NCBI GenBank assembly: GCA_022393335.1
Contig: JAJEKB010001331.1
Location: forward strand, 139,777-203,776
Origin: Macrotrachela quadricornifera
Lineage: Eukaryota; Rotifera; Eurotatoria; Philodinida; Philodinidae
Direction of reading: 5' to 3'
Length of the DNA stretch: 64,000 nucleotides
Both the position numbers and the translations under genes were made by a program. The notes beneath the pieces were generated by a model that saw only the letters and a program-made list of their open reading frames with translations, searched no databases and was not told the origin of the DNA. Shown one piece after another: positions 6,016 through 54,082 of the stretch; position 1 is the stretch's first letter; the number at the start of each line of letters is the position of its first letter.

Positions 6016-7344
6016 TTAAAGATATATTCGACGTAACTTTAATAAGTAGTTTTGAAACATATACAAATTAAGGCACTTACTGCAGCTGAATTTTTGTATA
6101 CGCCAATTGTAAGTATCAGCTACATATATATTACCATATGAATCAAATCTCATTCCAAATGGATTGGCCAATTGATTGGGACGAGAACCTTGGCCATCAG
6201 TTCCTATTATTGTTATACCACTTGATGCACCAGGAGTCCATTTTTGTATACGATTATTGAAAGTTTCAAGGGTATATACATTCTTTTGTTTATCAACCAA
6301 AACTGTTCTTGGCAAGGATAGTTGAGTTGGATCACGACCATTACCAGCGGCAACTGTTACACCAGTTATAACATCTTTTGCATACATTTGCACACGATCA
6401 TTATAATAGTCTGCTATATAAATATTAGCATCCTTATCTACGTACATGCCTAGAGGAAATCTGAATTGATTTGAACCATTTCCTTCGCCATGGCCGCCAG
6501 CAACGATAATACCTTCCTTTGCACCAGGTAACCATTTCATTACACGATTATTATCTCTGTCTGCTATGTATACATTTTCATTATCATCGACATGAATACC
6601 ATAACAATTGCTCAATTGATTAAGTGCAGATCCTTTACCATTTCCTCCCGCAACAGTAGTACCTTCCGTTGCGCCCAATGTCCATTTTTGTACACGAAAA
6701 TTACCATTATCAACAATGTACAAATTATTATTACGTAGAAAAATACCAACTGGATTTTTTAATTGATTCATACCAGATCCTGAACTTCCACCCGCTACAG
6801 TTATTGAATTGTTGCTATTAACTAACCATTTTTGTACGCTATTAACATTGTCTGGCACATAAATATTACCATCATTATCAATAAATACATCTTCAGGAAG
6901 ATTAGCTCGTGCTACTTTTGTTCCAGTTATATTCCATGTGCCTGATGGACATGCTATTACATTTCTTAAACCAACTTGTACTTAAAAATAAAATAATTAT
7001 GATTATTACAAACGAATTGAATTGAATAAATTTTTCTTCGGATGATTATATTTTCTAAAACACCATATCACTCTTTAATTCATACAGAATCCTGATGAAT
7101 GTGGCGTGGACGGGTGAATTACAATATGAGTCATGGAAAACATGTTATTTAGTTCTTAGTTTGAGAGGATAGACTCTAGAATGGATTACTATCTTATCAG
7201 TTTGTGTAGCACAATTGAAACAAAATCTATATAACTAGAACTCTTCGAAAAAGTTTGTAAGTCGTAATGCAAATCAGTTAATTTAGTAGTGAATACCTTA
7301 CCTTCAATCAATGCAAGGCAGAATAATAATATGTGCTTCGTCAT
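6016..7344 (-). CDS. Secreted NHL-repeat (beta-propeller) protein
   Basis: A two-exon gene. Exon 1 (7344-7302) encodes a 14-residue hydrophobic start typical of a signal peptide (MTKHILLFCLALIE) and ends at a GTAAGG donor in phase 1. Exon 2 starts at 6980 after a TTTTAAG acceptor. It carries about six NHL-type repeats of roughly 45-50 residues, recognisable by N(I/V)YIAD..N.R(V/I)..W/K..G......(V)AGG.G.G and N(Q)L..P.G. NHL repeats form a beta-propeller used for protein or ligand binding; a secreted role is inferred. Read straight through, the frame stops at 6016, giving about 335 residues. A consensus donor GTAAGT sits at 6080 after ...IQKFSCS, so a further 3' exon is possible, but foldback A lies there and none was found. 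The N-terminus and repeats are firm; the C-terminus is not. Confidence 0.85.
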
Positions 7345-27937: not shown

Positions 27938-30495
27938 TCAAACTGTGCAACAGTCACATGTATTCAGTATGATGCCCAGATTTTTCAGTATATCATCAAC
28001 AATAATAAGATCCAATTTACCATCATTATTGAAATCTCCTGAAACAATTAAACTTGGCATACTAGAAGTTCCGGTTGAAAATGTAATTTGTGCTAGAAAA
28101 TTTCCATTGCCAATCCCAAGTAGTATACCGACATTGTGCGCATAGCTATTACTGACAGCAACATCTAGTTGACCATCATTATTGAAATCACCAACAACAA
28201 CTGAGCTTGGAAAACTATAACCTCCAGTTGAAAAAACCTTTTGTGCTTGGAAGGTTCCATCACCATTTCCAAGCATTATACCTATATTGTCTTTTCCAGT
28301 ATTAGCAATAGCAAGATCCAGTTGGTTGTCATTGTTAAAATCACCTACAGCGATCGATCTTGGCTTAGTATAACGTCCAGTAGAAAACGTCATTGGTATG
28401 CCTAATTCTCCATTACCATTACTGAGTAGTATATATACGTTGTAAAGGATTCCATCAGGGGCAACCAGATCTTCTTGACCGTCTTTATTAAAATCACCAC
28501 CAACAACGAACAATACATATTCACAAATGTCTATACAAGAGCTGGTTAATGCTTCCAAAGTTCCATTATTGTTGCCAAGCAATACAGTTATGCCATGAAG
28601 ACTAAGGTCGATGACAGCAAGATCTGAATAATTGTCGCCATTAAAATCACCAACGGCCATCCACGTTGGTGCACTATAATATCCACTCGAAGATGTCATT
28701 GCTGTTTCAAAAGTTTTGTTGTCATTTCCTAGCAATACACCTACATTACTAGAGTAATAATTTGCAACAGCAAGATCTGTGTGTCCATCGTTATTGAAAT
28801 CACCGACAACAACAGATACAGGACATTCACCACCAGTAGAATAAGTTATTTGTGCTTGAAAAGTTCCATTACCAATTCCAAGAAGTACACCCATATTGTT
28901 AGAATTACAGCTGACTACAGCGATATCCAGATAATCATCACCATTAAAATCACCAACAGCAATTGATGGATATTCAAAATTAGAATCAAGATCAGTAATA
29001 TGCGAAATGAATGGTTGAAATGTTAATCGGCAAGTTAATCCTAAAAAAGAAAGCGATAAGATTTTACCTTTGGCATTAAAGATAAAAATAATTAAGTAAC
29101 GATGGAAGAGTTCTATTTTTTATATATATTTTTTGTTAATCTTTTAAGAATAAGTTACACATAAAGAGAGACTAAACTGTGAGTTGAACACTCAGTCAGT
29201 TACTCAATTTCGATTCTATTCATGTTAACATATGTGACAGATGTAGTGGTAAATACTTTTTTAATATAATTAAACTCAATAAACTTTTGAAATCTCGAGT
29301 TTATAAAAGTTATTTTCATGATAAGTTCAAAATAATAGATAAACAGTGAACAAGATTTTGAGTAAAAGCTTATCTTAAAAATCTAATCTTCAAGATTGAA
29401 CATTTCTTTTTCTATATAGACAATTAATAATTCTCTTCTAAATAGATATTGATGTCAAATGGATTTCTTTCTACGTTTCTGAAAATGTTCTTAATGTGAG
29501 TTGAGTGCTTATTTTATACTCCTGTATCTCTCGAATACAATAAGATGAGAATTAACGATATTTAAACACTTTCGTCAAATCCCAAACAATTGGGCGAATT
29601 GTGACTTTTTGAATTTATTCATTCTACTAAGAAGTAGGTTTGTAAACTGTTTTTTCAAAAAATATTTCGTCTTCTTTTTTATGGAATTCTAATTAAGTGC
29701 AAGAACATTCTTAAAACAATCTTTAACAGAGTATCCAGTGGTGTGTTTATACATTTCGAATGAGGATGTAAAATTCTTAGAACTAATTTCATATAATAAA
29801 ATACTTTCATGCTAAAAATATAAATGTGTTAATTAAAATAAGAATGAGCTTGCGACAATGAAGTACAATATGCATCAATATACCTCAAGAGATTGATTAG
29901 ACTATGTATATGTTATAGACGCTAAATAGTATCATACAACTCTTGTAATCTATCTATTAGCAACACATCTTCGGTCATCGCTATACATCAACTGAAATAT
30001 ATCGATAGAGTATAGACACAAAAAACCAGTGTTTTAGTAATAATCATATTTAGCAGACCTACTATCATCAAAAGTGAAATCACTCTTATCATCGAATTCA
30101 AAACATCACAGTCACAAATTAATAGTACAGGTGGAATGTACATACCTGCTGAAGTAAAATCTGTTGTCGTTCTAATCATTGTCGTCTTTGTTGAAGGTAC
30201 TAATAGAAAAAAAAAACAAAAGTTAATGATAAGAAAATATAGCTTTCAACAATTTCAAATTGTACGAAGGAGGCAAAATCTTTTATAGAATGATGCTATC
30301 CAAAGAGAAATATTTGACGGCGAAAAACAGTAAGTGAAAAAAAAAAACTTAAAAAAAGTCATACATGTTAATGCAGCATAATTCTTTCTTTCTCGATCTA
30401 AATGAACAGATGTGACAATAATAGCTATAATCATAAGTATGAGAAGAATAACGCCAAAGACTAAGCAACGCATTAATGTGGAGAATAACTTTGTC
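27938..30495 (-). other. FG-GAP/VCBS module of the giant gene (exons 10-12)
   Basis: Exon 10 carries a membrane helix, exon 11 (54 nt) a Thr-containing linker, and exon 12 about seven 45-50-residue repeats with Ca-binding-like D.N.DG.(L/T)D motifs (e.g. GDFNNDGHTDLAVANYYSSN). It starts with LTCRLTFQPF, the usual entry to this domain in rotifer proteins, and ends with a short Cys tail (NTCDCCTV). As an independent gene it would be a type II membrane FG-GAP protein, but no separate start codon with an adequate N-terminus was found upstream of 30495. Confidence 0.8.
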
Positions 30496-33400
30496 CTAGT
30501 AAAAATAACAATATATTATGAATAAAACTTAAAGAAAAATTATATACGTAAATGTTGCAACCGTGGGTACCAATATTACATTTACTGTGATGTTGTTAAC
30601 ATTTTCAGAAGTCATTGATGTATCGAATGTCTCAATCGCATTCATTTCAATAGTAGATATATGTCCAACAATGTTTTTTCGCCTTTTACGATATTGATTG
30701 ATTTTAGCAACAAGATAAACTATCTTTGGACAAATCCACTTAAGGACAAAAGTGAGACCACCATAAAGACCAAGTAGAACAGTTATTGTGTATAAAGAGT
30801 TAAGTTGTTGAATATAAGTATATGAACAACGTACAGGTGAACATTGATAAAAGTATGCTGAAAAATTGATTGTTGTTAACCACTGTTCGATAAAAAGATT
30901 TCTTACAAGATCAATGATACTAGTATTGACTGAGAATTGACTAATGTTAGCAGAGAATGATAAAGGAATATTTGTGGTATAATTATTAGTGTTAATATTG
31001 TTTGTAAATTGTCGAATGAGATGAATACATGATGAATTATAAAAGCATTCTAGAGTCGAGAAAAGAAATGATTCAGTTGGTGTACAACCCATTTTTAAAC
31101 CATTGATTGGAATAATTTTAGAGAAATTTCTTTCCATAAACCCTGCTTGAGTTGTACAGTTTGCAGTTGATGCACATGAACATTCATCGTCATAAGTCAT
31201 TGATCTGGTCATTCCAAACGAAGTACTGCTATTATAATAAGTATAAATATACTCAAAATTTGTTCCATAGGCTGTGACGATAGCATTACCATGATTTGTA
31301 ACTCGAAGTAAAGAGAGAAGTCGTTCGAATTTTGTAAAAGCATTGAATTTACTCTGTTTGATAAGCAAATTAATCTGTGCACGAAAAGTTGTTTGTGGTA
31401 AAAGCTGCGCAGCGACAAAAAGTGAAGAAAGAAATTGACCAATAGAATTATTGACTGATTGATTCGAAAGATTACATAATCCAGAAAGCAGTTGAAGGTG
31501 AGCTGATAAGAAACGACGATAGTCTCTAACATTGTACACAGAAAGATCAAGAGTAAGACCTGCTGTGATATTTATTCGCCACTGATCTGTAACAAATGGA
31601 CTGGAACAAACCTATAATTCATCAAATGAAGTCGCATATTATAAATTTTCTCAACTTACATTGTGAAATACAGGTGTAATATTGATAAATTTATTGTATG
31701 TTGATGAAATTGATGAACAAGGACATTGAAGTGTGTCGTTATGATTAAGTAACAGATCATTGTAGAGAATCAAAGATGGTTTAATAAATGTTTTTGTTAG
31801 AGTTTGTGGCTGAATCACAGTATATAAAGCGAGAATAGCGAAACTGATGATAAGAAGAACAATGTAGAGTCGAGTGGCCCATTGACCAAGGCGTTGAGCT
31901 TTCATCCGATCCACATTACTTCCGAAAGTTCGTATTGGAAATATGTTCAGATTGAGAGGTATGGTATATAAGAGTATGATCAGATTCCGTAATGCTTGTT
32001 TGATTCGATCGAACAATTTTATATTATCTATATAGAATAAGATCAATATTTCATTTTGTCTTGATACGATATTTGTACAAGTTTGAGCCTGCTCAATTTA
32101 GAAAACAATTCATATCTAGATCTATCGCCAAGATTGGACTGCAGAACTGTGTAAGCTGTACTATGAAGTGAATTTTTTTTTACAAACTCAAAATTTGAGA
32201 ATCTCTTTCATTAGAGGCATTTATGTAATTTCAATCATAAATCATTGAAGTTATATTCATATACTATCGAATTTCCATGATATATTATGATGTACTCGAA
32301 CTTGCATCTTAGACTATTTCAATTCTTATATTCATGGGTGCATTTTGAATATACTTCATATATATGTGTGATTTCACTCTCATCTTTATTCAAGTGATGC
32401 GTTCTGTTAAATTCTAGTCTTTTCTATCCAATAGATACAATTATGAGAGCATATGTACCCAAGCACATAACAGTATTAGTTGTATTTGTATTTATGCATC
32501 TGTGTCATACTCTACATTTAAAGCTTTATTACTAATCTTCACAAAAATCCATCAAAGATAAGTACTATAAGGAATATGATAAATTCAATATAAAAGTTTC
32601 AGTTTCTAGACTTCGCTGATTGCTGATTTCGCGCATTTTTTAAAAAACCGAGTTGCTCAAAAGCTTTATAATAGCAGGAAAATATAAATATTTATACTGC
32701 ATTTCCGAACGATCAATAGATATGAAGAGAAATTGGATCTTTTTATGAGTAATATATGTCTCATCTCATGCCAGTATCTGTATACTTTACCTTCACTCTC
32801 ACCTGAATATCTGATCGGTATTAGCAATCTCAACAGTAATTATAGCTTGCTCTCTAATTATTGTCAAATCTAGTGGCGGAAGTATGATAAGATAACCGTG
32901 TATACTAATTGATATTGGTAATCATATGAACTTCAAAAATTTATTCTGGAAGAAAAGTTAAGCAATTAGAAAATATCACAACTTAGCACACACTATACAA
33001 CTGACAAGCTATGTCGGAAAAAGAAAAATATGAATAGAAGAACGTCAATCAGCATCATATAGGTACAGAATTAAACTATGTCGCAGTATGCTCATCTCTG
33101 CTAATGAGCTAACAAATAATTATCAGAAGCGATTATCTTTCGTAGTGATAGGTTCAAATACTGAGTTTAAAGTCTTAATCATTGTCATTAGAACAAATGG
33201 TCTCTGGCAACTAGCTCTTATTTTGTTTTATTATGTCAGTCACATGACAAGCAGTTTTGCTCTATCTCTAGATAGATGTTAATCATCAGTACCATGAGAC
33301 CTTCAAATGATAATTACCTCGCTTTTGTCTTCTGGTCTTCGGTGTTAAGAAGCGAAACACAATACTGACAAGTTGAGGTGTAATAAAGCGTAAGACAACA

Positions 33401-36400
33401 ACAAGACCACCAATTGTAGATAGCAGCTTTATTACTACTCCCATAAAATTGGTAGTGTGTGTTGTGAAAGAATGAGTACAATAAATTGGTGCACATGCTT
33501 TATAATAATGATTGAATGAAGATGAAGGATTCCATTGTTCGATCATCATTTCTTTAACTATAACTGAAAGTGAAGTATTTGGAGGAAAACGACTTGACTC
33601 TCGATCATAAATGAGCGGTGAAATTTGGAACCATACTGAATTTGTATCATACAGGCTGAATGAACCATTTATCAAGATATATTGAATTGATATACAAGAA
33701 TTCGAATAGTAACATTCAAGTGTCGAAAGAAGAAGTGTATCAATGGTAAAACATCCTTTAACCGTGCCAGGTATCGCATAAGGGAAAGTCACATTCGGTT
33801 TTTTGAGCGTAAGAAAAGACCATTTATCAATAGTGACCGAACTATGACAATGAGGATCAGTAGCACAAATACAATTAAAAGAGGTTGAATTTTTATTTTG
33901 TATGCCAGTCAAATTGAATTTTAACTAAAAAAGAAAAGGAAATTATATTTTTTTCAATGTATCAGGCGCAAAGAAGAAGAAATTCCGTCTTTATGGACTT
34001 CACTACTAGCACAACACATTGTTAAAGATAGTTTCATAAGACACTAGCTATTCTTTATGTAATTGACAAACTTCAAAAAATGTCATATCTCTTCTTATTT
34101 GACAGCAATCCACAACTTCAAATAGAAAGTAGACTTGTCGGAGACTTTATCGCTTCCAATTGCTTGAGAACTTTACATACACTTTATATCATCATATCAT
34201 TAGTTTTTGAAAAATATACATATCGATAAACTAAAGTAGATAGTATAAGTTAAACGTAATAAATATATTGTCGAATGAGTGATCTGAGACATTAATCATG
34301 AGTAATTTCTCTAATATTAGGCTATAGTTAAATAAAAACGCGATTTGAATATATAATACTTTTAAAGTACATAAGATACATCATAATCATCTACCGATGT
34401 GCATATTGATTAAGTGTCATAAATTTCTGATTCTATTTCAGACTAAAAGTCGACTGAACGAGACAGTTTATTAGATTGTTCGTTGTGAAAGAAAATATCA
34501 AATATGTAACTGTTCATGTAAGTTTTAGTTGTAAGATACGATCTGGCGCTAGTTTATTCTGTCTTTTTTTTTCTTTATTTCTTAACCAAAAACGCTTTTG
34601 TTAGTCCCATATCACGATATTTTATTTCTTTCGATTTTCTCCGTATTAGACTACATATGAGAAGATCAAGAATAGTGTGAGTATAAACGTCTCACTTTTA
34701 AAAACTATTTGGGTAGTTTTCCTGAAAAAATTGAGCGTCTTAGAAAGTTCTTTTAACATAAACTTAATTGCTCGAATGGTTTTCGGTTAGAAACTGATCT
34801 TCTAGAAGCTCTTCAGTAGGGATTGAAAATTCCCAAATATCTCAAAATGTTGATTGTTTTTACAGATACATAATGAAAATTAATTAAAATCGGACTAGAA
34901 TTAAGAAGGAGATATCCTTCATGATGTGCAATTTATGATAGATGAACAGCACTGTCACTATATAATAAAAAGTGGTGTTATCATAATACATTTTTTTTCA
35001 TTCTCAAACGTACATCACTTGAGTTTTGTTCTAAAAAAACTATAACGAAAAATGAGAATCCAAATAAATTTAGCTCAAATTCTAAAGAGGTGGTCATAAA
35101 ATCTAGTAAAACTCTATTTCCGAGAGTATATTTTTGCAACAGTTAGATACATAAAACTGCTTAGAGTTTCTCTAAGTAAAAAGTGCTTCAAAAGATGGCT
35201 CCGAAAGTAAATTCGTATATCTCCCTCATCTATCAAAAGTAACGAACAACTTTCTTTATTTCATATGATATGCTAACTGCTACATGCTAAACGATTTAGC
35301 CAACCACAGCCATATCAAACACCAATCGTCTAAAATAAAATTCATTTCTACATATCCAATATAAGAAACATAATTTTAACTAGAGAAAAATATAACAATG
35401 GATCTTCCGACTCAAACCAACCCAAGCTTAAACTAAACATTTCACTTCTTTATACTTTCTATGTTAAAGTGATTGTATGCTTCTATTTCTCAAAGTGTTG
35501 CTTTAAGCCTCTGTGAACTTTTTTTCATAGTGATTTTATTTTAAGATGAATTTTTTGGAACGTCCCGTACATTCGACAAGAATATTTTTTGTTTAGATTA
35601 AATTCTTACGTGAAATTGTGATTGATTGCGAAGTTCATTTGCCGTATTGCTAACGCTTACTTTTGCATTATCGAATAAAGTATAGGGTTGATCTACTTGA
35701 GCGAAAAGTTGCACTATATCGACAAGAAGACCAAAATCAATAATTAATGATTGAATAAATTGATTGTAAGTTGAATTTAATTGAGTATAAAAATCAAATT
35801 CAGTAAGAACATTGGAAGTAATCAAGGATTGTTCGGTAAACCGATTAATAGCATCAGCAATCGTTTTATTAGCCAGTTGACAAAGAGTAGATAACAGTTG
35901 AAAGTGTGCATTTCTTAAACCAGGCCAATTATAACCTAAAGCCACTTCCAATTCTGAACTCCAGACATATGTATTTAATGAAATCCAGGCTTCGCTAACA
36001 TAATCACTTGAACATACATGATGTAGAGTTGGTGATATTGACATCATGCTACCATAAGGTATCATCACATTTTGACAAGGACATTCCAATGTATCTGAAT
36101 GTAAATTTTGTAGTTGTCTGTAGTCAAATAATGATACATTTGATACAGTCATTGTAATCGTTTGAGTATTCAACGAAGTGAATAAACAGAGAATAAGAAT
36201 TAAACCTAGAACGAAATAGAAGAAGAGAAAGAAATGGTAAAATATGTATAGCGTTCCGTGTATGTCTTTCTTCAGCATCCTCAAGGAGAGATGTACTGTG
36301 CATCTTCTTGAGGTATTGTCAGCGAGAATGACATTGTTAGATATGAAAAATTTTGTTCTTATTCAAGATACGGTTAATAGATATCTATAAGATATTAACG

Positions 36401-39400
36401 AGATCCCATGCATATTGTATGGTTGTCTTTTTCTTGGACGTTTCACATCTGTGCTTTGGCTTTTACCGGATAACGATCAATCACATACTTTACATTATAT
36501 ATAGATACACCTTGTAGTTTTGCCACATTTGACCTTTGATTCTTGGCCTGTCATTATAGTACTCGGCAACAGTTTCAAAAAAATCTAAAAAGTTCCAGAG
36601 CATCCTACAAAGTTTTACTTACGATACATATGGATTCACGAAATAGTTGCGTTAGTTCTCTTTTTTTGTTTTCTATAGACAAACAGTGAGACATCCACTC
36701 GATGTAATTTCCTCTAGCAAAGCCAGATTATTTACAAAAAACAGAATGAATATCACAACAATATCCAATCTTACTTGTCACTGCAACTTAGATTGAGTTC
36801 GTACTGATCAGCAGATCATAGGTTAAATGGTAGTTTTCTTGGAACAATCCTCTCACTCTCACTCTTCGACGCAAAATTTGGAAAATCATGAATAATGATG
36901 ATGCTCTATTTCACGACTGCCTAATGAACGTTCGAATTCCTTCTTTTCTTTGAATGAAAAAACTTATATTTGGCTAATTAAATCACATCTCGGTATTATT
37001 GAAGTGGTAACTTTAAGCACACAAATTTCAGATGTAGAGAAAAATATCAGGTTCGAAAACAAAACACTGTCGTACTTCCGAGTAAAACTAAATACGTGCG
37101 TGTGATTATCCGTTGCTTTTTAACAGCATTTTCAGATCGATCATTAATTGATTTGAACATATTTAGTTGTTTTATCCATTGAAGGAATTTTCGAATATAC
37201 ATCATGAAAGGTTCTATAAATTCAAGTATTAGATACATTAAGAATAAAACTTTTTCATAATAATCAAACCATACCTCTGTAAACATTGGTATTTAATGAA
37301 CGACGTTTGAAATTCAAGAAGACTTCAACTAAGAAAACTGTGGTTATGCGTAGTATGATTATGAGACCACCATATAAACTGATTAATAAAGTGATTGTAT
37401 ATGACACATTCATATGATCTGTTTTTGTATATGTGCAGAATGCAGGAGCACATTCAGCAAAGTATTTTGAATAGTTAATCTTTGTTGACCATTGTTCAAT
37501 GAGTAAATCAGATAGACTATCCTTTAAAGATACATCTGGCCGACTTGAAGATGAAAGAGAACTAGTCCAATTCAAATGTATCTAAATGGAAAAAGTTTTA
37601 TGCAAAATATGGGACTATATAATACATACTTGATTAAGAGCTGGAAAATAATGAGGAAAGATTTGAAGACAAGAAATATTGTAAAGACAATCAAATGTAG
37701 ATGCAAGAAGAGCATCAAGAGGAGTACATCCTCCAAAGAATCCATCGACCACTGCAGAAGGATTGGGCTCAAAGTAAGGTGGATAATAGGGCCAAAATTG
37801 ACGATAAGTTATGTCTTCATAGTTTGATAATGAGTAGAAACCAGCTGGAGCTGTTGAACTTTTTAAAAAGCATGGTGAACCGCCGAAAGCAGTATCGTGA
37901 AAAGCATTTTTGTCAAAGTAATATGTACTAGCCACATATACATCATGTACGTTATATAAATACGTGAGTACAATAACTAATGCATTTGTATTGAGAGCCG
38001 AGATCAAAGAGTTTGATCGTGTTGTTATTTGTAAAAAGTTTAATGTTAAATTGACTTGAACAGATGTGCTCGTTCGAGTGATCTGAACATTTTTATCGAC
38101 ATAAGATTGAACTTCATATTCTTGAAGAAGTTGAATGGTGACGAGCTGATTATTGTGAAAATCGACTAAGGCTCGAGATACTGTTTCTTGACAAAGTGTG
38201 CAGAGAGCAGCAAGAAGCTCAAACTAAATGTAAAGATGGATAAGTCTTATGTCCTGTAAACCGCTTGAAAACCGTCACTTAATTTTAATTATTTTACTTG
38301 ATCAATTATTAATTGGAAACTAAATATCGATCGATCAAAGATTTAAAGGAAATTAGCAGTTTTAAACTGTCTATACAATATAGATTAAATCGCACAAAAT
38401 ATAATGAGTATCGTATTATTTGTGATTAACATAACAGCAGTGGACAATATGATCATTCCATGAGGGAATTGTTCTACTTTAACGAGAAATGAAAGAAAGA
38501 AAAAGCTACATGTATCGTGTTCACTTGTAATATATGCATTCTAACTTAAAGAGAAATGCTTCCTGAACAAAAAATGAAACGAAAGAGTGAAACAACTTGA
38601 CTCATTTTTCTTAAAATATGTTTGACTTCTGTTTATGAAAGGGGGAAAGAGATGAATAGATTCACCTGAAAATTTTCATATTTCTGTTGGAAACTGTTCT
38701 TAAGATGAAAGATGAAAATGATCCATGTCATTCTAAGTCTTTTCGGCTCTGGTTTGTGAAGGGAGATATCGATGAAGCATTTCTCTTTGACTTTTTGAGT
38801 TTACAATTTTGGAATATATTGTCCAGTCTTCTTTGTATCTGTTAAATGTATAATTTACTACCGACACATAAGTTTGCTAATTTAAATAAAGCCAATCAAC
38901 TCCTCAGAATCAATCCCCATAGCTTTCCATGTATCTTTATTGAGATATAAAAATATTAAAACTCCCTGACAACAATGCACTGCTATTTGTAAAAGAAAAA
39001 CTTATTATGCTTGTTTCCACGCATCACAACAGCAATGGCATAACCTTTTTATAGTTTTATCTACGTAAGCCTGCATTTAGCAGGTAGTATTGTCAAGTGA
39101 CCAAAATAAAATATAGTCTAGTAGTAATAGATTTATAGTACGTATGACAATAATTCTTCTAAATTCAACTGTCTTTTCTCAAAGATACAAAAATTTACTT
39201 CTAAAGAGCATCTTATCTAATGGTAATGAAATATATTTATTAACGAAACAAAAAGATTCACTTACTTGTGAACTAGCTGTCGTTCGAAAATCCATCACGG
39301 AAAAGGCACTTGCATTTGCCAGATAGAGTGCTTTGATCCATTCTTCATTGATGAAAACACTCGAGCATACTGGATGAAATAAGATTGAAGTAGAAACAAA

Positions 39401-41715
39401 GGTATTGTAGAGTACAGTAATATTTGTACATGGACATGAAAGTGTGTCACCATGTTCGAGATAAAGTTGATCGAAAAGAGATGGAGTAATATTTGAAATG
39501 GTGATTCTTCGAGTTTGTGGATTTATCACGGCAATAAAGAAGAGAATATAAAATATTACTAAAATCAAACAAGACAAACATAAGAAAATCATGAATATTA
39601 TCATAGAGTCTATCCTTTAGTTCATAGAACTTTTATCCTTCAAACAGTCAAGAGATGATATTGTATTACAACTATGCTGTAAGACATCTGCATTTTCAAT
39701 AATACTCTTCTCTTCTTCTAAATAATTTCGTGTGGAAATTATGAATATTCTCTTATAGCTGCCAGCTTTTTTTCAATCGTCTTCTTGCAATTGACATTTT
39801 TTCCTATCTATAGATCTCGAGATTGCAATGTAGTTGAATATGAGCATTATCTACGGTTTTCAAACATGTTTCTGTATCAAAATCTGATTATTCTTCTATC
39901 AACTAGAATCATCCGTTAGAGACAAGATCTTTTAGGTTCGTCTGAAATGTTTTCGTTTTTTTATCTGGCAGTCATCAACAACAAGACAAGATTATTTCAT
40001 TGTTATTCATTGTAAAATGATTCTTTTATATCTTCCAATGAACGTTTCTCATAGATAATTACATCAGTTTATTTGTATCACGAAACAAAAATATATTTGA
40101 AATGATAGAAATATTTACTGTAAATCTGTGTAAACCTAATATATAGAAAATAGATAACTTACCTGGAATTTATGCAATAATTTAAGAGCTTGTCTAAAAG
40201 TGGCACTATTTCTGAAATCAGATGCAGCTGAAAGATAAAAATCTGCTGAAAAATATAGGATAAATAAGCATGATTTTTGATAATAGATCGAGCTTTCCAT
40301 ACTCGTATTTGGAAGTCGGTTTATATTTCGTTTTCTCATCTCTTATAACGCTTTTCAAGTCATTTAATTGTAAAAAATTTAAAACTTCAAAACACAATCC
40401 TCATTTCAAATGACAAGGATAAATTAATTTTCGTAGCTATGTTTGAATACTTACGAATAATCATTTTCATAGTTATTTCTTAGACCTTACAGTTTCCGAT
40501 GATTCATAATGTAGATCTTTTGGTAGAGTCTACGTTCTTATAAAATGATTTCTAATCAAAATTTTATTGTTTTTATAGTGAAATTATATTATTTACAAAA
40601 GTGTTAAAAACAAAACTATAACGTGTTACGGGAAAATGACACTTCGTCTCACCTTTCTATTATGAACTCCAGCTGTAATAGTCTGTTATGATCTTCGTTG
40701 CAGCTGAACAGCGAAATATTGACTCAAGATCAAAATGAGAAAGTCTAGAAGTTTGTAATGGCAACGACAGGATAATCGTAATGAAAAGTACAAGATGTTT
40801 CGAATGAAAACAGCAGAATATTTGTAACGATTTTGAGATTTACTCATCCTTGGAATAATGTGAAATAACATACTTGTCTTACAGCCTAAGATAGTTCATT
40901 AAGAATGTCTTAATGAATATAGTCAACCAAAATTGCACTTATTTTTACCATTCTAATTCTAGTCAAAGCACAAAAAAATAAATAGTTCTTAGTCACTTTT
41001 AACTTTGCCGTTTAGTAAATATAGAGTATAATCTCATAAGGACAAGAAAGATGACGAGAACGATAATTCTGGTGATTCAACACGTGTTTATTTTTGAATT
41101 GTATTTTCCTGTTTCTGTATTCAGTTCTTGCTTTGCTTTGAATGAAACCTAGTCGTGTATATAAAAGCGAAAAGAAGTCTTGATATATATTACGACCTCC
41201 AGTCATAACATTTTAAGGACAAAAATTCATTTTCGAATATCCGGACACATGTCCGGAGTTCGGAATGCCTTGAGACGAAACGTATGTCACTCTCTGTTAC
41301 GGTAAGATTAATTGTGGTAAAAATAAAATGAAAGGTGTTCGATGCGTCTTTAATATTGCTCGTGATGAGATATTTATCTTCCGAAAATATCTATAACTCA
41401 ATTAGATTAATCATATTACGAACAAATCTAAATAATTTCACGAAGTAAGTTGAGAATATTGTTTTATTATTTAAACAATATCACTGGTAATTCATTGGTA
41501 AATGCAATGTTTTATTCTTCGAAACAAATGAATTAAATCTACTTACTAATGAGCAGAGGAACATACAATCGAGTGGCATATCTTTGATGTTGAACAACTG
41601 TTGCTGGATCTATTGGTTCATCATTCTCATCTTCATAGTCATTTTCATCAGGAATAAAAAGATTGTAATTGTGTATTTGATTATGAAACCATTGAAGTAA
41701 ATCTCTGACTTTCAT
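27938..41715 (-). CDS. Giant multi-unit membrane protein: three 'CPC' units plus C-terminal FG-GAP/VCBS repeats
   Basis: Twelve exons: 41715-41547, 39558-39266, 38223-37630, 37581-37275, 37213-37076, 36205-35610, 33924-33318, 32027-31660, 31611-30548, 30495-30365, 30199-30146, 29040-27938. Lengths sum to 5,424 nt, one frame of 1,807 residues; every junction is GT/AG with compatible phase. Three units (about residues 1-454, 455-901, 902-1378) each have a basic cytoplasmic start, a helix after (A)TR(L/T)Y..LL, an ectodomain with (D)TL.CPC, (V)CSS, a GC(T/F)...L..ST(L/F)(E/D)C.YN.SC block and (I)EQW....Y...C.P..C, then a second helix with GG(L)..(V)L(R/K). After residue ~1378 come one more helix (RCLVFGVILLILMIIAIIVT), a short Thr-containing linker and about seven repeats of VGDFN.D...DL(A/V)(V), the FG-GAP/VCBS beta-propeller pattern of integrin-like surface proteins. 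Introns of 48, 48, 52 and 61 bp join parts that could be taken for separate genes. Function unknown; a surface adhesion or recognition protein is an inference. Main alternative: two or more genes, e.g. the FG-GAP part on its own. Confidence 0.65.
30548..32027 (-). other. Unit 3 of the giant gene (exons 8-9)
   Basis: Residues about 902-1378. The helix here is uninterrupted (ATRLYIVLLIISFAILALYT). A 48-bp intron splits FHN | VCSS. Most of the ectodomain and the second helix lie on one 1,064-nt exon. If its last donor (GTATAT at 30547) were not used, translation would end at 30529 shortly after ...VATFTYIIFL. Confidence 0.65.
33318..37213 (-). other. Unit 2 of the giant gene (exons 5-7)
   Basis: Residues about 455-901. 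Its first exon is reached from unit 1 by a 61-bp intron in phase 1. The helix is again split by an intron (RTYLVLLG | SLILILCLFTSLNTQT) whose donor is a non-consensus GTACGA. The ectodomain has SDTLECPCQNV, HHVCSSDY, NCICATDPHC and KGCFTIDTLLLSTLECYYSN. Confidence 0.65.
37275..41715 (-). other. Unit 1 of the giant gene (exons 1-4)
   Basis: Residues 1 to about 454. The ATG at 41715 follows no acceptor-like tract, so it is the likely start. The acidic cytoplasmic tail (PDENDYEDENDEPID) is peculiar to this unit. The helix is split by intron 1: ATRLYVPLLI on exon 1 and IIFYILFFIAVINPQT on exon 2, aligning residue for residue with the unbroken helix of unit 3. The ectodomain lacks the CxCA..xxC motif seen in units 2 and 3. 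Confidence 0.65.
40163..40231 (-). pseudogene. Relic of a 'CPC'-unit exon inside intron 1 of the giant gene
   Basis: The 23 residues SAASDFRNSATFRQALKLLH + KFQ precede a consensus GTAAGT donor at 40162 and match the ...DFR/DYR....FQLL..LC junction region of the units. Inclusion between exons 1 and 2 would break the frame (it ends in phase 0, phase 1 is needed), so it is better read as debris of a lost fourth unit. The match is short. Confidence 0.4.
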
Positions 41716-50576: not shown

Positions 50577-51536
50577 CTAATAAGTATATGTTTTATTTAA
50601 TCTCATTCTTAAATGTTCACCAGCTGTTAATATATCTTCATTATTATGATTAAGTGCATGTTTAGCATGTTCATCTTTTTCAAATTTTTTATTACGAATT
50701 ATTTCTGATGGAATTGCTGTTAATAATGTTGAATTATTTGGATGACAAAAAAATGCTATTGAAAAACGTTCATTTTCTTTTGTTGAATCAATTATTGGCA
50801 TAGTTACACGATGAACAGTACTTTTTATAAAACCTTTTGACCAATATTCAAAAACATCACCAAAATTTACAACAATCATATCATCAAATGGTTCAACAGG
50901 ATACCAAATATTTGTTGAACGATCGAGTACTTCAAGACCAGATTTATGTTCATGTTGAAAAAGAAGAGTTATTGAACCATAATCTGAATGTGCACCAGCT
51001 CGAATAGATTCATCTGATTGATTTTTTACAGAAGGATAATGAAGTAAACGTAATGTATCACCTGATTTTAATTCCCATTTATGTCTTGATGTAAAATAAT
51101 CTGAATCAATATGAAAACTTTTAGCAAGATATGTTAATAATTCCATACATAAATCATAACAATTACGATGAAATTTTTTTATAAATTCATAATTATCTAA
51201 TTGAGTAAATACAGATGGTAATTGATTAGATTCAACATATTGTCCAATATTAAATGCTTCTTTTTCATCGATTAAATTTATATTTGTACTATCAAGATTT
51301 TCTTGTCCACGTCGAACATAACCATGATTTTCTTCTGTAATTTTATATTCTTCTTTTATATTCGATGGTAAACGAAAAAATTCTTTAGCAAGTTTAAACA
51401 TGCGTTGTTGAACATCTAAAAGATTGTGATTACGAAGATAGAAAAAACCTGTTGTAGAAGCAGCATTAAATATTGAATGAATTATAATCGATTCATCTGC
51501 TTTAAGATCAATTATAGGCAATGAAGAAAATGACAT
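50577..51536 (-). CDS. 2-oxoglutarate/Fe(II)-dependent oxygenase, isopenicillin N synthase-like
   Basis: One uninterrupted frame; the start MSFSSLPIIDL at 51536 matches the family entry (short lead then (L)PIIDL), giving 319 residues. An in-frame ATG at 51632 would add 32 hydrophobic residues unlike the family. The N-terminal DIOX_N-like half (GFFYLRNHNL, F..A..FF.LP...K) is followed by the double-stranded beta-helix core: H183 and D185 in AHSDYGSITLL, distal H242 in STVHR, and R257/S259 in NERFSIAFF for 2-oxoglutarate binding. So the catalytic residues are complete. Members oxidise small molecules using Fe(II), O2 and 2-oxoglutarate; the substrate cannot be predicted. The gene has no intron while both neighbouring genes have short introns, and this family is widespread in fungi, plants and bacteria, so horizontal acquisition is possible but not shown. 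Confidence 0.88.
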   Translation of the reverse strand: MSFSSLPIIDLKADESIIIHSIFNAASTTGFFYLRNHNLLDVQQRMFKLAKEFFRLPSNIKEEYKITEENHGYVRRGQENLDSTNINLIDEKEAFNIGQYVESNQLPSVFTQLDNYEFIKKFHRNCYDLCMELLTYLAKSFHIDSDYFTSRHKWELKSGDTLRLLHYPSVKNQSDESIRAGAHSDYGSITLLFQHEHKSGLEVLDRSTNIWYPVEPFDDMIVVNFGDVFEYWSKGFIKSTVHRVTMPIIDSTKENERFSIAFFCHPNNSTLLTAIPSEIIRNKKFEKDEHAKHALNHNNEDILTAGEHLRMRLNKTYTY

Positions 51537-52449
51537 GATGGTTGTTTTGTTTTTCGGTGATGATGATAGGATAGTGAAAGATTCAAGAAATCGAAAAAAA
51601 AAATAAATCAAATAAGTAAACAAATGAATCATATCATTCGACTAACCACTGACATCTAATAAGGCCATTTAAAAAAATAATTTTGATACTTTTTTAATAT
51701 CAAAATTAATGATAATAGTTCAAATCGATAAAAATATAACACATTCATTGTAAATTATATATAAACAAGTTTTACAGATGTCACTATTAATTGGACTCAA
51801 GGTCTATTATATTGCTGTGATAAACATGTATGTTCATATAAAAAAAGTATACTTTTTGTTCTAATCAATAGAAAAGAGTTTTTTTGTCATATTATACTTT
51901 TTATTTGAACAGGAGAGAATAGAAAAGTGTCTTCGGACATGCCTAGAAGATTCTGTCAAAAATTTCTAATAAAGAGAATGAAATAGAAATCAATAAGACA
52001 CAGTAGATAGTTGACTCCAAATGAGAGGAAAGTTAATGTTGTTTTTCAAAGCTTGTAAATCTTTGGATTGCTTATAAAATAAATTTACTTTGAGTTGCAT
52101 TACATAGTCGGGCTCATATCGAACATTAATATAAATGATGATTTTGTTTTACAGATCTATTAATCTTACTACATTATGATAATTGTTTTTATACGGACGG
52201 ATATAATCATATATTTTTCCAATCAAGTCTATGATATTATGCATTTATTTTCTTCCTAGTTCATTTGTTACTAATGCATTAAAAATAAAAAAAAAGGACA
52301 AGATAAAAAATGATTAAATAAATATTAAGTAAATGTTAGTTATAGAATTCAAGTAGAAAAATTACGACAGTTAAAGTTCACGTAATATATAGCTCTGTGT
52401 CAATAAAAATAGTTTTAATGTAAGATTCTTTTTTTATTGAACAACATAT
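51537..52449. other. No gene seen
   Basis: AT-rich spacer between the oxygenase start and the stop of the tetraspanin-like gene at 52450. Confidence 0.4.
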
Positions 52450-54082
52450 TTAGTGATACGTATCGACGAATGATTCATCTCTAGGTAAAGTCGTAGCAGG
52501 TCTATTCATAGATCCTAATTGTTGTCCAAAGCTTTTTTTTCCAGGAACATTAGAGGTTGATTGACGACGTATAAGAAGAGGAATAGCTACAAGCGCCAAC
52601 ACTAACATAAAACAGTTTATTACACCAATACCCATTTCTTGCTTATTGGCTCGTCTAATCATGAATTTCAAGCATCCATCTGTATAAAAATTGTTTGCAC
52701 TGGTACAAGCTTAACAAAAGAAAGATGATGTCCATATTTCTAGATTTATAATCATATATCAATAAAAAAAACTAGTTCTTACTTGATGGTGACGGATTAT
52801 TTGAGCCATTTCTGGCCGAATTACAACAAGTTCTCGGAACAGAAACGGTGGTAGAAAATGGCACACTAATCACATTATTGTCTGTAGAACCTGTTTGTCT
52901 CTTTCGTCGAATAGCTAAGACCAAAGGACTTTGTACCAGACTAAAAGAATTTTAAGTACAATAAAATAATACAAGATTGTATATTCCATTTCAAGCATCT
53001 TATGTAATCACTCACATATAGCTACGAATTCTTCTAATTGCCCTTGATAGTCTTGATGATGGTTCTGGTGATGGTGCCGCTGTAGTATCGTCCCCCGGTG
53101 TTGGGGTTGTATCTGGAGCCGATGGTGATGGGGTTGAATCTGGTGCCGATGGTGATGGGGTTGTATCTGGTACCGATGGTGATGGAGTTGTATCTGGTGC
53201 TGATGGTGATGGGGTTGTATCTGGTGCCGATGGTGATGGAGTCGTATTTGGTGCCGATGGTGATGGGGTCGTATTTGGTGCCGACGGTGATGGGGTTGTA
53301 TCTGGTGCCGATGGTGATGGGGTCGTATTTGGTGCCGATGGTGATGGGGTCGTATCTGGTGCTGATGGAGTCGTATCTGGTGCTGATGGAGTCGTATCTG
53401 GTGTTGTGGTTGTCGGAGTCGCTGACTGATAACGGCTCCAATCAAGCCACGATGTCTCGCCACAACATGTATAATCTGTTTGTATACGATTAATTATATT
53501 TCTGGCACCTTGGTCACTTGTAAATAGACTCATCTTAGTTGAGAAGCGCCCGCTAACGTAAGTGGCTGATCTCGCATTTAAAACAAGTGCAGCAATCAAA
53601 GATCCAAGAGCAAAGGCTGCAAGTATACCACACAGAGCAGCAACAACTATGCCTGACAAACAAAGAAAATATTTAAATAGGCTTTTATGCATTGCTTTTA
53701 TTCTCAATGAAGACTACAAAATACTTTCATAGTGAATAACATCATGATTAGATCCTTTTTATTATGGATAATTTACTCAAGTAACAAGATGTATGAAAGC
53801 AATACTTATATGTCTATGCATTTTAAATATTCGTCTTTATAAAATAAACTGAAACTTACCCACAACCTTTTCTTTTGTTATTATAGAAAATAAACCAAGT
53901 CCACCAACTATCATGCCTACAAAACCGATTATAATATTAAAGGATCCTAATCCTAATTCTGGACGAAACAAATCACCATAACTGCGATTATTAGCAACAA
54001 TACCAATACCAACTCCGAAATGAATAATAGCAAATGCCGAAATAAAAGACAATACAATAATACCATAAGGAATCATTTTCAT
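52450..54082 (-). CDS. Tetraspanin-like protein 1 with a Pro/Ser/Thr repeat in the large loop
   Basis: Four exons, 54082-53860, 53652-53016, 52940-52783 and 52709-52450; phases agree, giving 425 residues. Layout: helix 1 (IIVLSFISAFAIIHFGVGIG), helix 2 (FNIIIGFVGMIVGGLGLFSI), helix 3 (VVAALCGILAAFALGSLIAA), a large extracellular loop and helix 4 (INCFMLVLALVAIPLL). The loop has the tetraspanin CCG signature (YTCCGETSWLDW), a second Cys pair (RTCCNS) and a late Cys before helix 4 (YTDGC). Between CCG and the second pair sits a run of nine PSPSAP(D/N)TT-type repeats that is not part of canonical tetraspanins. Tetraspanins organise membrane microdomains; the partner is unknown. Helix 1 departs from the canonical family, so this is a divergent, probably rotifer-specific branch. 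A paralogue lies upstream at 56.6-57.9 kb. Confidence 0.82.
53094..53405 (-). repeat. 27-bp coding minisatellite (9-residue PSPSAPDTT unit)
   Basis: About nine copies of a 27-bp unit (GGTGCCGATGGTGATGGGGT on the plus strand, then TGTATCT), differing by a few bases, plus two shortened 21-bp copies at the higher-coordinate end. It lies within exon 2 of the tetraspanin-like gene. Because the unit is a multiple of three, frames on both strands stay open; those other frames are not genes. Confidence 0.9.

Follow-up and report, generated by a model that had tools for sequence, protein, structure and literature searches.

A bdelloid gene for three fused two-helix membrane units and an FG-GAP propeller: a candidate single-chain pseudo-trimeric receptor

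The 64,000-nucleotide stretch of the rotifer Macrotrachela quadricornifera analyzed here (the window; contig JAJEKB010001331.1 of an assembly of 450 Mb in 5,695 contigs) carries on its minus strand, at 27938-41715, a gene for a membrane protein in the order (helix-ectodomain-helix)x3, a seventh transmembrane helix (TM7) and an FG-GAP module. We consider it practically certain from the sequence that the three units and the TM7-FG-GAP part form one gene rather than four, because a second copy, a paralogue, junctions at other loci and same-order proteins of other bdelloids agree on this. As the best overall explanation, with a probability of roughly 0.5, we propose that the product is a single-chain pseudo-trimeric receptor of the cell surface, perhaps a receptor-channel, whose propeller head is exchangeable.

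One gene of twelve exons

Rebuilt from the genomic sequence, the spliced model comprises 12 exons and 5,424 nt, encoding 1,807 residues and a stop codon, with GT-AG ends at all 11 introns; the frame claimed in the initial annotation, with its single start and stop, was reproduced exactly. All features lie on the minus strand. In unit 1, exon 1 (41547-41715) contains the start codon, the N-terminus with an NYNLF motif and the first part of TM1, exon 2 (39266-39558) the remainder of TM1, the CPC motif and the first part of ectodomain 1, exon 3 (37630-38223) further ectodomain 1, and exon 4 (37275-37581) the end of this ectodomain and TM2. A phase 1 intron of 61 bp (37214-37274) leads to unit 2, where exon 5 (37076-37213) encodes a predicted cytosolic linker with an LNMF motif and the first part of TM3, exon 6 (35610-36205) TM3, the CPC motif and ectodomain 2, and exon 7 (33318-33924) the end of ectodomain 2 and TM4. 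Unit 3 follows a phase 1 intron of 1,290 bp (32028-33317) and is made up of exon 8 (31660-32027), with a predicted cytosolic linker lacking Met ahead of its LNIF motif, the whole of TM5 and the CPC motif, and exon 9 (30548-31611), with ectodomain 3, TM6 and a predicted cytosolic tail. Behind a phase 2 intron of 52 bp (30496-30547) come exon 10 (30365-30495; TM7), exon 11 (30146-30199; a short Thr-rich stalk) and exon 12 (27938-29040; seven FG-GAP repeats and the stop codon). The lengths and phases of the three junction introns are those first reported (61 bp, 1.3 kb and 52 bp). Once joined through the donor at 37075 and the acceptor at 36206, within the TM1-equivalent of unit 2, the first helix of unit 2 lines up with those of units 1 and 3.

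A second, allele-like copy on contig C3507 (L039 and L040) aligns with the entire gene. It differs by 210 substitutions and no gap in the 5,424 coding nt, and it retains all 12 exons with start and stop unchanged and GT-AG ends at all 11 introns, whereas its introns differ from those of the window by 32 gaps, one intron alone having 885 gapped positions; this contrast makes the 12-exon model more than a product of chance. The ratio of nonsynonymous to synonymous divergence (dN/dS) between the two copies is 0.45 overall and 0.36-0.45 within each unit, while the values for the tail plus TM7 (2.1; 13 and 2 changes) and the linker between units 2 and 3 (1.5; 8 and 2 changes) come from too few changes to interpret. 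A pseudogene or assembly artefact was rejected on this dN/dS and on the second copy being open across 5,424 nt. The FG-GAP exon (27938-29040) is the most divergent between the copies, at 93.1% identity versus 95.7-99.3% in the other exons and a dN of 0.056 versus 0.020-0.027 in the units, a pattern that might fit a binding head under change.

A more distant paralogue on contig C4376 (L041 and L042) carries pieces of the three units, TM7 and FG-GAP in the same order, 52-71% identical by exon. Its exons 1-9 measure 169, 293, 594, 307, 138, 593, 604, 368 and 1,043 nt, compared with 169, 293, 594, 307, 138, 596, 607, 368 and 1,064 nt in the window, and its intron between units 2 and 3 is 1,156 bp long. 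The first nine junctions are kept under a script that imposed the window phases and left junction 10 unresolved.

With the phase left free, the same junctions recur at other loci. The unit 1-unit 2 junction was recovered at 26 of 30 loci in phase 1 with introns of 46-65 bp (24 of 28 excluding the window and its second copy), and the unit 3-TM7 junction at 28 of 30 in phase 2 with introns of 51-54 bp (26 of 28 on the same exclusion). The unit 2-unit 3 junction appeared at 11 of 30 loci in phase 1 with introns of 507-681 bp, and these 11 include neither the window nor its copy; the other 19 gave no result, exon 7 being either beyond the 1.5-kb flank or rejected by the motif rule. In these sets the window is represented by L009 and L045 and the second copy by L010 and L046, and near-copies remain: at 95% identity the 30 exon-9 loci and the 30 exon-4 loci each collapse to 22 groups, and at 90% the exon-9 loci collapse to 14. 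The scripts take the best-scoring GT-AG pair within bounded intron lengths (40-89 bp for unit 3-TM7, 40-109 bp for unit 1-unit 2) and are therefore biased toward finding a join. An earlier pass, which allowed introns up to 259 bp and left minus-strand loci unturned, yielded 14 joins, every one in phase 2, with introns of 178-180 bp in three cases. The unit 3-TM7 misses are L019, which is masked, and L033, which gave no join and has apparently lost its AG; among the unit 1-unit 2 misses, L056, L065 and L071 have GT and AG at the usual places with exon 5 apparently broken behind them, and L074 has an early stop. Several paralogues thus appear broken, by a lost acceptor (L033), by stops or an insertion in exon 5 (L056, L065, L071) or by an early stop (L074), and the family therefore also seems to shed copies.

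These junctions bear directly on the alternative that units 1, 2, 3 and TM7-FG-GAP are four separate genes, perhaps an operon resolved by spliced-leader trans-splicing, a process that rotifers use. The gaps between units 1 and 2 and ahead of TM7 are short, a Met stands directly behind the unit 1-unit 2 acceptor, and reading through exon 9 meets a stop after 5 to 25 codons, all as separate genes might have it. However, the position of that stop varies among loci, the N-terminal segment of unit 3 has no Met at any locus read, and donor, acceptor and phase recur at the frequencies given above and persist in the C4376 paralogue. Moreover, of the 32 best exon-9 places, 30 are preceded by a unit-1 exon in the same orientation no more than 25 kb upstream (22.7 kb in one case), and none of the 32 has one on the opposite strand within that distance, in a test that drew on 70 of 118 exon-9 and 56 of 150 exon-4 places. 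The two places lacking the upstream exon are C1579 and C4351; at the latter, the 9.5 kb examined yielded neither unit 1 nor the first half of unit 2. Four separate genes or an operon were rejected on the second copy, the recurring junctions and the paralogue, and we regard this arrangement as extremely improbable.

Predicted proteins support the same reading. In an alignment of 14 relatives, Adineta predicted proteins align across the unit junctions, although several are gapped at the linker between units 1 and 2 and P0005, P0006, P0010 and P0013 are without the propeller part. The unit order that the initial annotation suggested seeking in rotifer proteomes is present, together with the FG-GAP end, in predicted Adineta proteins, and its claim of one gene encoding this architecture is supported by the second copy, the paralogue, the junctions elsewhere and these bdelloid proteins.

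A bdelloid family with a constant core and varying heads

The units of the window protein are pairwise 27-32% identical (BLASTP E-values of 3e-41 to 1e-60) and show the features of the family: three units of about 430 residues, each with a CPC-type motif and a GGL-xxxL-R/K motif in the second helix (in full, S/G-xx-GGL-xxxL-R/K-xxxP). A protein search with residues 1-1420 returned 124 proteins (120 listed), a unit-profile search 192 (120 listed), and a protein search with a distant relative 73. Among the matches listed, those with an organism name belong in every case to Adineta or Rotaria and the remainder are environmental records, so the unit family, judged by these sequence matches, appears only in bdelloids. 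The protein search requires shared five-residue words and may therefore miss remote relatives outside bdelloids. The Adineta and Rotaria predicted proteins (P0001 and others) are true relatives, the best being 55% identical over residues 1-1420; they share the unit order and FG-GAP end with the window protein, but some differ in having NHL repeats or no head. In the host genome the unit-3 exon has at least 118 matches, a lower bound in which only the best candidates were scored, a few matches are halves of one place and allelic copies count separately.

Three is the prevailing copy number. Among 114 sequences of at least 1,200 residues, 111 have three units, three have two and none has four. 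A hidden Markov model of the unit, applied to 306 sequences with split matches joined (36 showed 4 to 6 pieces before joining), assigned three units to 157, two to 53 and a single one to 96, and no sequence had four or more; eight of the 157 are shorter than 1,000 residues, and many of the short sequences come from the length-limited unit-profile search or are marked partial. In a tree built with 84 units, taken from 28 proteins, units 1, 2 and 3 of the window subfamily form separate groups, each pairing the window with P0001 and P0010 with P0015, which implies that the triplication predates the window subfamily and that the units travelled together. One Adineta vaga protein, P0118, combines three units with listed alpha-galactosidase (Melibiase) domains, either as a true fusion or as a gene-model join.

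The only known domain that a Pfam search found in the window protein is FG-GAP, whose profiles match the last exon far above their cut-offs (PF13517, E-value 4e-58, 194.2 versus 26.9 bits; PF01839, 126.6 versus 22.1 bits). Seven DFNxD loops, at residues 1471, 1521, 1572, 1623, 1674, 1725 and 1776, are spaced by 50-51 residues; their number fits a seven-repeat propeller, and a closed propeller is predicted from this count. Loops of the DFNxD type bind Ca. Seven repeats with DxNxD-type loops and a predicted extracellular location are shared with other FG-GAP modules (PF13517/PF01839), but here the propeller is C-terminal and is separated by a seventh helix from the three two-helix units to which it is attached. 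The heads of integrin alpha chains also contain FG-GAP propeller modules; there the propeller is N-terminal, ahead of the thigh and calf domains and a single C-terminal helix, an order different from that of the window protein, where the propeller stands behind the membrane units and TM7. Across 114 three-unit proteins with near-complete units, the C-terminal head is FG-GAP in 36, NHL in 3, both in 1 and another kind in 5, and a hydrophobic helix lies near the start of 34 of the 36 FG-GAP tails. Elsewhere in the window, a separate NHL-repeat open frame (6016-6981, minus strand; PF01436, E-value 2e-24) has no CPC unit scored nearby; another propeller gene thus seems to sit about 21 kb downstream.

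Topology, predicted structure and comparison with known folds

The three ectodomains of the window protein hold 30 sequons and 35 Cys, while the two inner linkers hold none of either and have net charges of +9 and +11, a distribution consistent with linkers in the cytosol and, after TM7, a propeller on the outside. We infer that the N-terminus and linkers are cytosolic and that the Cys-rich ectodomains and the propeller probably face the outside. Across 203 aligned units, 10 Cys columns are conserved in unit 1, 12 in unit 2, and 12 plus one within the second helix in unit 3. The second helix carries a basic residue at the motif position in most aligned units (Arg in 94% of units 1, Arg or Lys in 92% of units 2, Lys or Arg in 83% of units 3), and its polar-face moment is reached by only 0.9% of shuffles over all units and by 1.1-2.8% per unit; the first helix has no polar face, its moment being reached by 48% of shuffles.

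AlphaFold2 models were obtained for two relatives, the three-unit protein P0260 (1,194 residues; predicted local distance difference test (pLDDT) 87.9 and predicted template modelling score (pTM) 0.79 from 67 sequences) and P0156, which consists of one unit 3 (pLDDT 87.6 and pTM 0.71 from 69 sequences). The modelled unit runs from a long first helix through a strand, the CPC region, two long ectodomain helices, strands and short helices to a strand leading into the second helix. We judge a pTM of 0.79 hard to reach with unit placement unknown, which suggests that the units of P0260 pack together.

Neither sequence nor predicted fold led to a described relative. The window units have no Pfam match of weight (matches listed up to an E-value of 10, with filters dropping most above about 0.1) and no PDB sequence match of weight; in Foldseek the P0260 and P0156 models matched no PDB chain at an E-value of 0.001 or below, and the single-unit P0156 model had no match among viral models. 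A search of the open-licence literature turned up no paper describing the CPC unit or this three-in-one architecture. These negatives bear out the initial remark that the architecture appears to lack a description, though it is already in public databases as unnamed predicted Adineta proteins. With the fold comparison covering PDB chains and viral models, we rate the unit family and the architecture as outside known kinds.

DEG/ENaC and P2X channels, which have two helices and a Cys-rich ectodomain and assemble as trimers, come closest in design, and the units might be far-diverged subunits of either kind, fused three in a row. Topology, unit size and stoichiometry are alike, the second helix is Gly-rich in the window family, and the two helices with a large Cys-rich ectodomain that mark DEG/ENaC (PF00858) are present in each unit; like ASIC and P2X, the assembly would contain three such units, a trimer being predicted here. 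Yet neither PF00858 nor PF00864 is among the listed Pfam matches of the window units, on which ground membership by profile was rejected, the PDB sequence search is equally silent, and the Foldseek matches of the two models, 12 and 6 in number, include no ASIC, ENaC or P2X chain that would point to a palm-finger-thumb or P2X ectodomain fold, although this does not prove that such a fold is absent. Two long ectodomain helices precede most strands, unlike in the ASIC thumb, and the three units lie in one chain with an Arg or Lys in the middle of the second helix, in contrast to ASIC and P2X. We therefore hold such an origin to be very unlikely. Voltage-gated Na and Ca channels offer a parallel of another sort, being natural one-chain concatemers of four: they share repeated, diverged membrane units in one polypeptide at a fixed copy number, but the window protein has three two-helix units with large ectodomains and no sequence match to them.

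Proposed working and its significance

We propose that the three units pack together into a naturally occurring pseudo-trimer within one chain, in which the second helices point their polar faces, with the Arg/Lys, toward the inside. The three-unit core would be the part that works and is conserved, the propeller a binding head that can be exchanged, and the ectodomains and, where present, the propeller would bind something outside the cell. A pseudo-trimeric core is somewhat favored; that the protein is a recognition or sensing receptor of some kind stands at about even odds on its sequence, and a central pore is doubtful.

Several observations weigh against this proposal. The N-terminal segment is negatively charged (net -7), contrary to the positive-inside rule, and the Arg/Lys of the second helix may instead face lipid head groups or another helix. 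In the family-wide tree, units 1, 2 and 3 do not form single groups (9 label changes against a minimum of 2). The modelled proteins are relatives and not the window protein itself, P0260 sharing 25-29% identity with relatives that bear FG-GAP, for example P0001, and P0156 sharing 54% with window unit 3. Finally, 69 of the 114 three-unit proteins with near-complete units end in a tail of less than 150 residues without a propeller; the core can therefore do without one.

A serious contender, only a little short of even odds, is a pore-less modular receptor for adhesion or recognition, in which the units serve only as a rigid anchor and stalk, or as three binding domains, and the propeller does the binding. 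The heads vary over a constant core, the FG-GAP exon is the most divergent between the two copies, and PMC3846280 reports an expansion of FG-GAP and NHL families in Adineta vaga. A plain anchor, however, needs neither three copies nor six helices nor a conserved Arg/Lys in each second helix, and the many members without a propeller also speak against this view. At the other end stands a three-in-one channel of new fold, its central pore lined by the second helices and gated by the exchangeable extracellular propeller or the ectodomains, as part of a bdelloid receptor repertoire. We think this unlikely; since the three Arg/Lys would lie at the same level, such a pore would favor anions, a speculation from sequence. 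The pseudo-trimeric receptor with an exchangeable head remains our preferred reading.

Two further features of the window lie apart from this gene. A 354-residue open frame on the minus strand (50577-51641) contains both halves of a 2OG-Fe(II) oxygenase (PF14226 and PF03171), a kind common in plants and fungi, and is possibly a foreign gene. A tetraspanin-like match, also on the minus strand (53015-53713), scores slightly below the cut-off (30.3 versus 32.1 bits) and is adjoined by a Pro/Ser/Thr repeat tract that is open in several frames.

The gene represents a large membrane-protein family of three-in-one design for which the libraries searched contain no described relative by sequence or by fold. 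The joining of a symmetric oligomer into a single chain is one way in which such fused repeats can originate, and in this family the change from trimer to concatemer, with three positions then able to diverge, can be put to the test. With more than 100 places in one assembly (allelic copies counted separately) and differing heads, it is a candidate self/non-self or chemosensory repertoire of these long-asexual animals.

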